A DNA stretch of 64,000 nt from Alkalihalobacillus pseudalcaliphilus (GTDB lineage: Bacteria; Bacillota; Bacilli; Bacillales; Bacillaceae_D). A model generated the notes under the pieces. It saw only the letters and a program-made list of their open reading frames with translations. It searched no databases and had not been told where the DNA came from. Every line of letters starts with the position of its first letter. The first letter of the stretch is position 1. Both the position numbers and the translations under genes were made by a program. This document shows positions 2 to 9,308 of the stretch, in pieces. Location of the stretch: NCBI GenBank assembly GCA_001038565.1, contig LFJO01000005.1, forward strand, positions 924,009 through 988,008, in the 5' to 3' direction.

Positions 2-406
2 TTTAACTATAGTGCAATTAAAGATTATCTAAATCTAATTACCAGTCAATATATATATATATTAATAACGTCATTACCAATATTGATATTAGGGCTTCTT
101 ATAAATAAAGGTAACTTTAATCTTTATGATACTCTAATTATTTTTGGTCAATTAGTTTTAATAATTATACTTGCAACTTTAATTGGAATTTTATTCCCGG
201 CAAAAAAGGACAACCCATTCTCACCGTTTATTGGATTTTTAATAATGGTAATAATTTCAGGGTTTATATCATTAATATTACAATTCTTAGATTTATCAAA
301 TCTGTACAATAGCATATTAATGCTGATTTTATATATTTTCGTTATATATATAAGTTGTTTGGGATTAATAAAACTAAAAGAGGAGTTTTTACATGAAGAA
401 AGTTAA
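2..406 (+). CDS. ABC-2 type transporter permease, C-terminal fragment (cut by window edge)
   Basis: The frame is open from the left edge, so only the last 134 residues of a longer protein are present. They are almost all hydrophobic, with about four predicted membrane segments. A loop reading LFPAKKDNPFS resembles loops in ABC-2 permeases that export peptides or antibiotics; the family call rests on this and on overall character. The stop overlaps the next gene by 14 bases, implying a polycistronic transcript with the two-helix protein, M50 protease and peptide gene that follow. The ATPase partner, if any, would lie outside the window. The substrate is unknown; the neighbours suggest a peptide. 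Confidence 0.6.
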   Translation, partial: FNYSAIKDYLNLITSQYIYILITSLPILILGLLINKGNFNLYDTLIIFGQLVLIIILATLIGILFPAKKDNPFSPFIGFLIMVIISGFISLILQFLDLSNLYNSILMLILYIFVIYISCLGLIKLKEEFLHEES

Positions 407-695
407 TATTATCATTGGAACTCTAGTGATAGCTGTGATAAGTACGATAGTAATTTTAGTATTTAGTTTGATAACGCTGATGTTTACTCAAGATGAAGCT
501 GGATATAAAACTTCATTTTTCAACACAGTGTTTGTGAATGTGGAGGAAAATACCGCAGACTGGGATTTATATACAACTCTAGGGGTGAATACTGATAATT
601 TAGCACCTATTATTTTAACGACTATCTTTTTTTGGATTTTGTATTTAATTTTAACTAAGGTCTATTTAGAAAAAAAAAGAAAAGACAAAACGTAA
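393..695 (+). CDS. Two-helix membrane protein of unknown function
   Basis: This is a 100-residue protein with a hydrophobic segment at about residues 5-29, a polar loop of about 40 residues, a second hydrophobic segment at about 70-90 and a lysine-rich C-terminus (YLEKKRKDKT). The likely topology puts the loop outside the cell and both ends inside. The start follows an AGAGGAG ribosome binding site by about 8 bases and overlaps the upstream permease by 14 bases. I do not recognise the family. Small membrane proteins in this position of a peptide-export operon can be immunity or accessory proteins, but that is inference from context. Confidence 0.65.
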   Translation: MKKVNIIIGTLVIAVISTIVILVFSLITLMFTQDEAGYKTSFFNTVFVNVEENTADWDLYTTLGVNTDNLAPIILTTIFFWILYLILTKVYLEKKRKDKT

Positions 696-706
696 AGTAA
701 AAGATT

Positions 707-1237
707 ATGGTAGATAAAAAAAATGATATTAATGCTATCAAATTTATTGATGTTATTAAGTACGTTCTAATTTATATGAAATGGTGCAATTATTTCTTTA
801 TCTTTTTCTTTATTGCTTCATTATTATTACTTTATATAAAAGTTAACATTATTTTATACACGTTAACCTATCTTTTAGGTGGAATATTATCAATTAGCAT
901 ACATGAGTATATGCATATATTATTTATAAAAAAAATTACAAATAACAGTCATATTAGAATAAAAATTAATTCAAATCATTTTAGTATAATTCCTTGTGAT
1001 AAAGTACATGGCTATAAATCCATTCTTATTGCATGTTCTGGTCCGATAGTATGCTTTCTTATAGCTGTATTTCTATACTTAATTAAACAATGGTTGTCTC
1101 TGGAAAGCTTTTTTATGGATTTACTTATTTTCTCCTATGCATGTCATATTTTCAGTATCCTACCTTTTTTTAAAGATGGGAGTATGATATTAAAAGAAGT
1201 GATTTATTATCTTTTGAAAGGAGGTGAAAAACAATGA
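707..1237 (+). CDS. Small membrane-embedded zinc protease, M50 (site-2 protease) type
   Basis: This 176-residue protein has several membrane segments. It carries HEYMH (HExxH, residues 66-70) inside a hydrophobic helix and a C-terminal LPFFKDG motif (aspartate about 157), the two zinc-binding signatures of M50 intramembrane proteases. Such short M50 proteins occur in peptide operons, for example yydH of the B. subtilis yyd epipeptide locus, where they are thought to process or release the peptide. The start has only a weak upstream purine run, so translation may be coupled to the gene before it. The stop overlaps the peptide gene's ATG by 4 bases (ATGA). The peptide is the obvious candidate substrate; that is inference. 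Confidence 0.7.
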   Translation: MVDKKNDINAIKFIDVIKYVLIYMKWCNYFFIFFFIASLLLLYIKVNIILYTLTYLLGGILSISIHEYMHILFIKKITNNSHIRIKINSNHFSIIPCDKVHGYKSILIACSGPIVCFLIAVFLYLIKQWLSLESFFMDLLIFSYACHIFSILPFFKDGSMILKEVIYYLLKGGEKQ

Positions 1238-1491
1238 ATTATATCATGTCGAATTTATATGTTAAGAAAGAGAGCGCAAAAGATAAGATTATGCAATGGA
1301 TTGAAAATTGGACACAGGGATATAATGGTCCACCATTCTGGTTTATTGTTTCATTAATTGTGTTAGCTGCTATCGCAATAATAGTAATAACAGCAGCAAG
1401 TATTTTCTGTATGCAAAAAGGTTATTCGTACTACGGTGTTGACTGGAAAAAAGGAAATGTAGGGCAAATTGGAGTAGGCTGTCTACGATAG
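1234..1491 (+). CDS. 85-residue single-span peptide precursor, possible bacteriocin or signal peptide
   Basis: The product has a charged N-terminal part (residues 1-34, rich in K, E and W), one very hydrophobic span (about 35-58) and a 27-residue Gly/Tyr-rich tail beginning at Cys59 and holding Cys83, which could form a disulfide. It is preceded by AAAGGAGGTGA, an essentially perfect anti-Shine-Dalgarno match, ending about 6 bases before the ATG, so it should be translated strongly compared with the three genes before it. Last place in an operon with an ABC permease and an M50 protease fits a peptide that is processed and exported. I do not recognise a known bacteriocin family. A small structural membrane protein is the alternative. 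Confidence 0.6.
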   Translation: MNYIMSNLYVKKESAKDKIMQWIENWTQGYNGPPFWFIVSLIVLAAIAIIVITAASIFCMQKGYSYYGVDWKKGNVGQIGVGCLR

Positions 1492-7459: not shown

Positions 7460-8782
7460 ATGAATGAAGAACAAAAAATCCGTCGAGCTACTTATCATCT
7501 ATGGACGTTTGGTTTTAGTAAGCTCATCTCAACATTTGGAAATAGCATTTATGTGTTTGGGATTAGTCTTTATATTTTGACTTTGACAGGTTCGGCGATG
7601 AATTTTGCTGTCAATATGTTGTGCTCTGTGTTACCAAGAACGATCCTGGCACCCTTTGTTGGTTATATGGCTGACCGTTACTCGAAAAAAGCCCTTATTA
7701 TCATTTCACAATTAAGCTCTTTGCTCATAGTGATTGGTTTACTTATGTATAGTATTTGGTATGGAATTTCATTATTAGCTATTTACATAACGACTGTATT
7801 GTTAACCATTTCTTCTATGTTTACCGGGATTACGTTTACATCATCCATTACGAGATTAATAGATAGAGAGAGGATTCAAAAAGCGATGTCACTCAATCAA
7901 ATGTCTGTTTCCATTTCGGCGATTGGAGGACCTGTAGTAGGGGGAATGTTATTCGCTTTTGCACCGATTGAAGCCTTCCTTACCATATTTATTGCTGCTT
8001 TTATTGTCGCGGTCATATTAGAAGCAACAATGAATTTTCGCTTATTTGAGGTCCAAAATGAGAATCAAATTACAGAAAAAGAATCTTTTTGGCAAGGCAT
8101 GGGTGCCGGTATCAAATATGTGATGAATCAAAGAGTGCTGAAAATCATTTTTACTGTTGCGATATTTATCAATTTCTTTGCCGCAAGCTTGACGATAGGT
8201 TTACCTTATCTACTCATTGAACAATTACAAATTAATGCTGCCCACTTCGGCATGATTGAAGGAATTTTTGCAGGTGGACTATTGGTTGGGGCTTTATATT
8301 TTATGTTCAGAAAAGAAGTGCAATTTCCTCTAATCAGCGTGAAATTTGGTATAATCAGCTATGGACTCCTCATTATATTAATGGTTCTCCCTTTAATGAT
8401 GGTATTTCCTTATTGGCTTCAGGTTTCCTATTATAGTTTATTAGCCTTATCAATTGGTTTTGCCTTAACGTATACAAATACACCAATTGGCGTGATGATG
8501 CAAAAGATGATCGATGAAGATTTAAAGGGAAGAGTTTTCGGAATTTTAGAAACGATCGCCCAGGCTTTGATGCCTATTAGCGTAATCATATATGGCATGT
8601 TATATGACCAAGTCGGTCCGTTTTGGGTATTAATTAGTTCAGGTGTATGTGTAATCCTATTAACGGTATTCCTAATACGTCCATCGATAATCAAATCCAT
8701 TTATCCAGAGAAATACGGACTATCCATCCCTGTACCAGAAATTAGTAAGACAGATGTAGAAAAAAGAGATGCGTTGATTTAG
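7460..8782 (+). CDS. MFS transporter under control of the XRE regulator
   Basis: The product is 440 residues with about 12 membrane helices and a motif A-like GYMADRYSKK in the loop between helices 2 and 3. It is of the same broad MFS_3 efflux type as the transporter at 4215. The start at 7460 is placed 8 bases after AGGGAG; a TTG two codons earlier would be too close to it. It is divergent from the XRE-TPR regulator with shared operators, so its expression is probably switched by a signal sensed through the TPR region. The hydrophilic tail ends just before a 51-base tandem repeat array. The substrate is unknown. Confidence 0.85.
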   Translation: MNEEQKIRRATYHLWTFGFSKLISTFGNSIYVFGISLYILTLTGSAMNFAVNMLCSVLPRTILAPFVGYMADRYSKKALIIISQLSSLLIVIGLLMYSIWYGISLLAIYITTVLLTISSMFTGITFTSSITRLIDRERIQKAMSLNQMSVSISAIGGPVVGGMLFAFAPIEAFLTIFIAAFIVAVILEATMNFRLFEVQNENQITEKESFWQGMGAGIKYVMNQRVLKIIFTVAIFINFFAASLTIGLPYLLIEQLQINAAHFGMIEGIFAGGLLVGALYFMFRKEVQFPLISVKFGIISYGLLIILMVLPLMMVFPYWLQVSYYSLLALSIGFALTYTNTPIGVMMQKMIDEDLKGRVFGILETIAQALMPISVIIYGMLYDQVGPFWVLISSGVCVILLTVFLIRPSIIKSIYPEKYGLSIPVPEISKTDVEKRDALI

Positions 8783-8799
8783 GTGAGGAGAGTCAGATT

Positions 8800-9178
8800 G
8801 AGCAAACGCTGAATCGCGGGGTTGCCGGATAGAAAAAGAGAGAAGAAGCCCGAGCAAACGCTGAACCGCGGGGTTGCAGGCCGGAAAAGAGGAAGAACGC
8901 CCGAACAAACGCTGAATCACGGGGTTGCAGGTGGAAAAAGAGAGAGGAAGCCCGAGCAAACGCCGAATCGCGGGGTTGCAGGTGGAAAAAGAGAGAGAAA
9001 TCCCGAGCAAACGCTGAATCACGGGGTTGCGTGCTGAAAAGTCGAGAGAAAGCCCGAGCAAACGCTGAATCACGGGGTTGCGAGCTGAAAAGTCGAGAGG
9101 AAGCCCGAGCAAACGCTGAATCACGGGGTTGCGTGCTGAAAAGTCGAGAGGAAGCCCGAGCAAACACCGAATCATGAT
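8800..9178. repeat. Tandem array of 51-base GC-rich repeats (seven full units plus a part)
   Basis: Units start at 8800, 8852, 8903, 8954, 9005, 9056 and 9107, with a broken eighth at 9158. Each begins GAGCAAACGCTGAATC and continues to GGGGTTGC. The first unit is 52 bases and the rest 51, so reading frames stay open through the array on both strands. The last three units share a different second half (GCTGAAAAGTCGAGAG) from the earlier ones. It is richer in G and C than the flanks. No ribosome binding site points to a real gene, so I treat it as non-coding. It starts 17 bases after the MFS stop. Confidence 0.85.
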
Positions 9179-9203
9179 TAAAACGCAGGCTATCGTCCTT
9201 AAT

Positions 9204-9308
9204 GAACTTTCACAAAAGCTAAATAACAGAAGCCCGATTCACATCGCCACCAACAAACATGAAAGTAGCGTTCGCCTTCAACTGGTGGCATTTTGTTCAT
9301 ATGCCTTT
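9204..9308 (+). repeat. Dispersed repeat family 1, truncated copy
   Basis: It starts with AACTTTCACAAAA and runs through GAAGCCCGATTCAC, GCCACCAACAAA and CTGGTGGC, closely matching part of the copies at 11793-12016, 35399-35495 and 46625-46705. Only the left part of the unit is present. It is non-coding. Confidence 0.6.

Follow-up and report, generated by a model that had tools for sequence, protein, structure and literature searches.

We analysed a window of 64,000 nucleotides from Alkalihalobacillus pseudalcaliphilus (contig LFJO01000005.1, positions 924,009 to 988,008; "the window" means this whole stretch), which opens with the last genes of an operon for a small membrane peptide. Sequence comparisons indicate that this operon is very likely a TMcin biosynthetic cluster, which would make a disulfide-closed, exported, pore-forming peptide. 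The TMcin class of pore-forming antibacterial peptides has one characterised producer, and the window appears to add a divergent, chromosomal new member to this class as published in 2025-2026. The original prediction for this region had described an operon end with a permease, a two-helix protein, a protease and a strongly translated 85-residue peptide, and had proposed that cleavage in the membrane releases the peptide as a disulfide-closed bacteriocin or signal of a type that it did not recognise. A fitting type had in fact been published in August 2025 (Nat Commun, PMC12328743).

The open reading frames (ORFs) of the operon lie on the + strand of the window at 2-406, 393-695, 707-1237 and 1234-1491, with neighbours overlapping or 11 bases apart. 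The original prediction had suggested looking upstream, and when upstream DNA of the same contig was added, an ATP-binding cassette (ABC) ATPase gene and the start of the permease gene were found, completing a five-gene operon for ATPase, permease, two-helix protein, protease and peptide. Its overlapping frames, HEYMH and DG motifs, AAAGGAGGTGA site and 27-residue tail (Cys59-Arg85, containing Cys59 and Cys83) were all as originally described, and strong translation of the peptide may be inferred from the ribosome-binding site. The features are:

L002:13539-14273: ABC ATPase (TmcB-like), overlapping the start of the permease gene
2..406, +: C-terminal 134 residues of a long ABC permease (TmcC-like), open at the window edge; the gene starts upstream at L002:14251
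393..695, +: two-helix membrane protein of 100 residues (TmcE-like escort), from its ORF and pHOB2 homology
707..1237, +: site-2-type intramembrane metalloprotease of 176 residues (TmcP-like), lacking the recognition element (RRE) domain known from ribosomally synthesized and post-translationally modified peptides (RiPPs)
902..916, +: HEYMH zinc/catalytic motif, protease residues 66-70
1175..1180, +: distal Asp-Gly of the protease active site, residues 157-158
1217..1227, +: ribosome-binding site AAAGGAGGTGA of the precursor gene, six bases before the ATG at 1234
1234..1491, +: TMcin-type precursor of 85 residues (TmcA-like)
1336..1488, +: predicted mature peptide, residues 35-85 (51 residues, helix plus tail), extrapolated from Cys25 of TMcin-G1905
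1339..1407, +: membrane helix, residues 36-58 (helix 35-61 in the AlphaFold2 model)
1408..1410, +: Cys59, first tail cysteine
1480..1482, +: Cys83, second tail cysteine

TMcin-G1905 is a 5.8-kDa peptide encoded on Staphylococcus aureus plasmid pCT545; its N-terminal half is a membrane helix, its tail is closed by a disulfide, and it forms large pores (PMC12328743). Bacillota and Actinomycetota have homologous operons, whose genes come in three arrangements, and a DsbA gene and a helix-turn-helix (HTH) gene pair accompany mostly the Staphylococcus clusters (PMC12328743). A mutational study (bioRxiv, June 2026; PMC13252029) found that TmcP, a DUF3267 site-2 protease with H68EYMH and D158, cleaves off the leader within the membrane, that the two-helix TmcE is required for this step, that TmcBC exports the peptide, and that the DsbA-like TmcD makes the disulfide, which is needed for activity; the core operon order is tmcB-C-E-P-A. 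The window operon combines a one-helix precursor with a two-cysteine tail, an HExxH/P..D protease, an ATPase and a partly unread permease, a TmcE-like protein and this same gene order.

As a sequence proxy for the TMcin-G1905 cluster we used pHOB2 (L149, NZ_CP018844.1), a 9.3-kb mobilizable plasmid of Staphylococcus epidermidis 14.1.R1 that carries five TMcin-type genes in the window order, plus a Thioredoxin_4 gene and an HTH gene with a 149-residue partner without a Pfam match. In two-sequence BLAST without composition correction, the window and pHOB2 proteins matched for the ATPase (39% identity, E 1e-58), the two permease pieces (31% over 136 residues, E 2e-22; 35%, E 2e-26), the two-helix protein (30% over 100 residues, E 8e-15) and the protease (28%, E 7e-18). 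In a tree of ATPases (41 rows: 37 cassettes and four others), the window grouped with L025, L026, L104, L105, L123, L124 and L126 with support 100/99; six of these seven neighbours share the window gene order, and L126 has E-P-A before B-C. Because gene content, gene order, the HEYMH motif, pHOB2 homology and the ATPase tree grouping agree, we file the window operon in the TMcin class.

Conservation in the precursor and protease follows the same lines. Both tail cysteines are invariant in 28/28 aligned precursors, as the original prediction would have it, and the stretch from the second-last to the last cysteine, counting both, is 23-27 residues long in all 48 precursors of the final set. The protease residues H, E, H and P, D, G are invariant in 20/20 aligned proteases; outside this alignment, the L120 protease has DS in place of DG. 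The Pfam family DUF3267 (PF11667, "putative zincin peptidase") matches 15 of the 20 aligned proteases at E 0.01, and Peptidase_M50 matches seven. An AlphaFold2 model of the window protease (mean pLDDT, the predicted local distance difference test, 83) has as its four best matches in the PDB the site-2 proteases mjS2P of M. jannaschii (3b4r) and SpoIVFB (8vjl/8vjm), each with probability 1.00 and E 0.002-0.02 in Foldseek. The precursor model (mean pLDDT 74) has a helix at 35-61 and a short strand pair at 65-67/82-84, resembling the published TMcin fold. Counting back as from Cys25 of TMcin-G1905 gives a 51-residue product that starts one residue before a Trp in 11/11 precursors of the window group (membership of L128, L149 and L151 was assigned by eye), and by this extrapolation the window precursor is predicted to be cut between residues 34 and 35. 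Within its own genome, the window precursor is the sole match of precursor profile A1. The expectation that the peptide matches no known membrane protein held: Pfam returned no family over its cut-off for four precursors tested, and no NCBIfam curated cut-off was reached among 28, which gave three weak single-member matches to unrelated families (E 0.003-0.009). A fold search with the window peptide gave no match, and five permeases had no Pfam match at E 0.1.

A comparison of the window peptide with 41 genomes of its own taxonomic family gave six weak matches besides itself, and one of these, a 72-residue peptide beside an ABC ATPase (L005), led to the whole cassette family. Profile searches covered 397 genomes of the order, 398 of the class and 378 of the phylum, plus named genomes and plasmids; a protease search had matches in 11 of 397 genomes, the window's own included. 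The many weak matches in the order and class searches were taken as chance and left unused, and matches at E 0.001-0.1 were accepted only with fitting neighbours (G072, G134). The named genomes yielded seven loci, in Gracilibacillus, Lentibacillus, Rummeliibacillus, Caldalkalibacillus, Paenisporosarcina, a Lachnospiraceae and a Haloplasmataceae assembly, three of which appear identical to L026, L104 and L105. The window peptide found nothing in IMG/VR and nothing among plasmids, nor did the L026 peptide among phages or the L107 peptide among plasmids; the L057 and L026 peptides found five plasmid records, three of which were examined. The final set is 48 loci with a homologous precursor, window included and with some near-copies (compared greedily and without gaps over their last 55 residues, 35 remain below 80% identical); L068 (G203), a precursor at a contig end without other genes, is included in none of the totals of 48.

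All five gene kinds were recognised in 41/48 loci (38/45 by profiles, plus three plasmid loci), bearing out the expectation that homologues keep their protease, ABC and two-helix neighbours. Elsewhere, L069 has its ATPase on the opposite strand, an unrecognised ORF of 452-465 residues takes the permease position in L118, L121 and L148, ORFs of 465 and 90 residues take the positions of permease and two-helix protein in L147, L128 is a short contig without ABC genes, and L120 has no separate two-helix gene. Since homologous cassettes recur and their catalytic and cysteine residues are conserved, the window operon is not a chance arrangement. Tandem precursor genes occur as an identical pair in L025 (6544-7125), a near-identical pair in L104 (6405-7042) and two different genes in L147 (9390-9827). 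The L104 permease is split into two ORFs (7813-9256), and this cluster may therefore be broken. Protease remnants 76-80% identical to window protease residues 4-37, and containing a stop, lie at the edge of small contigs of two other genomes (L022, about 283-384; L023, G060:C51:7921-8010).

Several observations weigh against the TMcin assignment. TMcin-G1905 itself was compared through the text of the two papers, and the product of its pHOB2 proxy is itself putative. The window precursor is divergent, with 20% identity to that of pHOB2 (E 5e-9), and has Phe immediately N-terminal to Cys59, a position held by Trp in the ten others listed in its group; its tail was modelled at low-to-middling confidence (block pLDDT 61-76). 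The window protease matched no Pfam family at E 0.01, the best being Peptidase_M50 at E 0.065. An intact permease gene is not proven, because 345 bases of its interior are N and their sequence is unseen. By eye, the flanks of the window cassette hold no adjoining disulfide-enzyme (DsbA/tmcD-like) gene and no HTH/regulator pair, a pair that the papers do not demand outside staphylococci. About 80 kb downstream, the genome does carry adjacent genes of the Thioredoxin_4 and DsbB families (C22:1005134-1006079).

Taken as a TMcin cluster, the operon suggests the following mechanism. The 85-residue precursor would insert into the producer membrane with its N-terminus inside, and the two-helix protein would hold it and present it to the site-2 protease, which would cut at the inner edge of the helix, at the predicted site, and so remove the leader. 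Cys59 and Cys83 would be joined outside, probably by general disulfide enzymes of the host, and the tail would close as a hairpin beside the helix. The ABC transporter would then extract the peptide of about 51 residues from the membrane, and the released peptide would insert into neighbouring Gram-positive cells and form pores. For the S. aureus homologue, leader removal, the disulfide, export and the need for TmcE (PMC13252029) and pore formation (PMC12328743) have been shown experimentally. Because this homologue is cut in the membrane, disulfide-closed and released, the originally proposed cut and release as a disulfide-closed bacteriocin gains support, with the correction that the product would keep its helix and not consist of the tail alone. 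For the window copy, the comparisons show which genes are present, their order and homology, the conserved residues and the fold of the protease; expression and activity, the exact cut site, topology and self-protection are inferred.

The G+C content of the window cassette is 26.3%, compared with 33.6-40.4% (median 36.4%) in 3-kb windows over positions 2000-64000, which fits acquisition from elsewhere. Between the cassette and an SgrR-like gene lie 834 bases without a convincing gene (1492-2325), of which no second copy was found elsewhere in the genome; an inverted pair resembling insertion-sequence ends was seen near 1530-1580, by eye only.

There is a small but real chance that the window cassette is a decaying or silent copy: it is an AT-rich insert that adjoins stretches without convincing genes, it has 345 unread permease bases, and cassettes elsewhere do decay, as the two protease remnants and the split L104 permease illustrate. 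What speaks against decay is that every fully readable gene is intact, that gene starts overlap or lie close, and that the ribosome-binding site is near-perfect. Eep and PptAB show that a protease and an ABC transporter are able to make signals, and a pheromone that the site-2 protease cuts, the ABC transporter exports and neighbouring cells sense would suit the response regulators seen by eye beside L024, L057 and L065, the LytTR-type regulators beside L069 and L071, and the HTH gene beside some related cassettes. We nevertheless regard a signal as improbable here, given that no receptor gene was seen next to the window operon, that a product which includes a whole membrane helix and has about 51 residues is unlike short pheromones, and that the homologous product kills and forms pores (PMC12328743).

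The peptide, as a one-span protein encoded in a transporter operon, might instead belong to the ABC transporter as a small subunit, structural or regulatory, that is never released. This is very improbable in view of the two invariant cysteines, the tandem copies in L025 and L104 and the two different copies in L147, the RiPP-type leader motif of one branch and the experimental work on TMcins. An epipeptide (yyd/EPE) system, which would likewise account for an M50-type protease with ABC genes, is scarcely credible: by eye, the operon and its flanks hold no radical SAM epimerase gene, and EPE is a 17-residue epimerised peptide (PMC7026026). The likeness to yyd drawn by the original prediction thus holds for the protease beside ABC genes and fails in that yyd has its epimerase and is not the nearest relative.

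Within the TMcin-type cassettes, a second branch stood out. In 20 of the 48, the window's not among them, the protease has a long N-terminus, with at least 175 residues before HExxH in the 19 measured, against at most 78 in the RRE-less ones measured and 65 in the window; the twentieth, from Paraclostridium bifermentans (L150), was classed by its annotation as a "PqqD family peptide modification chaperone". Pfam was applied to six of the 20, all of which match PqqD/RRE, five over the curated cut-off and L069 just under it; among the remaining long proteases, the RRE label rests on alignment with the Pfam-tested ones for seven and on length alone for six. The window protease has no PqqD match and stands outside this branch, which spans several Bacilli families and one Clostridia plasmid. 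The loci of the branch include L057, L059, L064, L069-L071, L102, L103, L106, L115-L117, L120, L147 and L150; in L150 (P. bifermentans plasmid pHD0315_2-3, 7495-12466) the cassette is followed by a thioredoxin gene and a second DUF3267 protein.

The RRE label coincides with a leader motif. The pattern [YWF]xxPx[LVIFA], 37-42 residues before the first tail cysteine, is present in 20/20 RRE-type and 0/28 RRE-less precursors (Fisher p 6e-14), or 17/17 and 0/18 with near-copies removed (p 2e-10). F in first place, which only L070 needs, and the distance limit (34 or more) were chosen after the data were seen; the limit excludes one RRE-less precursor, that of the window, whose YNGPPF (residues 30-35) abuts the helix 29 residues before Cys59. 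With the published lasso-type RRE leader motif, [Y/W]xxPx[L/V/I/F/A] (PMC13381572), and no distance limit, the counts are 19/20 and 1/28 (p 3e-11). Among loci found after the link between RRE and motif had been stated they are 9/9 and 0/20 (p 1e-7), and shuffled leaders would give 0.8 of 20 with the motif. These p-values overstate independence because the sequences are related; on the ATPase tree, the well-supported branches fit the RRE label only if it changed at least twice. When 377 genomes were searched with the protease first, there were 12 matches at E 1e-15, one being the RRE-less window and the other 11 adjoining a motif-type precursor; this search added G351 (L147), missed by peptide, whose precursor matches the profile only at E 0.003 and has a second precursor beside it, seen by eye.

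We therefore think it probable that there are two modes of TMcin maturation: one in which the RRE of the protease would grip the leader and deliver the membrane-embedded precursor to an active site that lies within the membrane at a set distance, and one, that of the window branch, without an RRE. If true, an RRE feeding an intramembrane protease makes a testable model. The terms "PqqD" and "recognition element" are absent from the main texts of PMC12328743 and PMC13252029; "M50" was not found in the available parts of two RRE surveys, and neither literature searches nor the main texts of the TMcin papers yielded an intramembrane protease guided by an RRE. The published TMcin tree may already contain some RRE-type cassettes.

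Two further features of the related clusters touch on published TMcin biology. The protease of L120 (3446-4702) continues for 219 residues after HExxH, where the 44 others measured have 96-122, and its extension weakly matches the two-helix profile (12 bits), so that it looks like a natural TmcP-TmcE fusion. A common six-helix ancestor of TmcP and TmcE has been proposed (PMC13252029), and the apparent fusion agrees with this idea. Thioredoxin/DsbA-type genes lie in or beside seven loci, over Pfam cut-offs in L057, L064, L128, L149 and L150, below in L126, and in L025, whose thioredoxin and DsbB genes are 1.4 kb away; these were spotted by eye and then checked with Pfam, a non-systematic count with no background rate. 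tmcD is said to be missing outside staphylococci (PMC13252029), and the six non-staphylococcal loci are possible counter-examples if they are counted as TMcin clusters.

Plasmid pHOB2 is of interest for its host. Strain 14.1.R1 inhibited all tested P. acnes strains through a proteinaceous, heat-labile agent that the authors did not identify, suspecting a type VII secretion island; mass spectrometry of the active extract gave PSM-beta peptides, EsxA and an HU-like protein, with no cassette product named in the available parts of these reports (PMC5347227; PMC4770681). We hypothesize that the TMcin-type cluster of pHOB2 is the source of this activity, which makes it a candidate for the strain's antimicrobial. 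Heat lability, which is not the first expectation for a small disulfide peptide, and the mass-spectrometry findings weigh against the link. The main texts of PMC12328743 and PMC13252029 do not mention S. epidermidis. The Thioredoxin_4 gene of pHOB2 runs off the start of the record, and the PLSDB gene table does not list it. The RRE branch and pHOB2 merit further study, and the comparison as a whole yields a simple search rule for TMcin-type clusters.

Among known systems, Eep/RasP with PptAB/EcsAB resembles the window operon in that a site-2 protease and an ABC transporter act on membrane-borne peptides. These enzymes are general ones, whose genes do not accompany a single dedicated peptide. 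EPE (yydFGHIJ of B. subtilis) also has a membrane metalloprotease and an ABC transporter beside a small peptide gene, and differs from the window in its radical SAM epimerase and short epimerised product (PMC7026026). Both EPE/yyd and Eep-type pathways were set aside as the identity of the operon. The RRE-type cassettes (L057, L059 and the P. bifermentans plasmid L150) have the same five gene kinds and a two-cysteine, one-span precursor, and are unlike the window in the PqqD/RRE part of the protease, the YxxPx[VILFA]-type leader and the position of the precursor gene, which comes first in the operon. pHOB2 has the layout described for staphylococcal TMcin clusters, including the Thioredoxin_4 and HTH genes, neither of which adjoins the window cassette. 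Compared with the TMcin-G1905 cluster on plasmid pCT545, the window cassette is chromosomal and has no adjoining DsbA gene or HTH pair, and its precursor has 85 residues where the tmcA gene of TMcin-G1905 has 297 bp. The two clusters share the same five gene kinds in the same order, tmcB-C-E-P-A, an HEYMH protease with a distal Asp, and a one-span precursor with two cysteines, which in mature TMcin-G1905 are Cys25 and Cys50.

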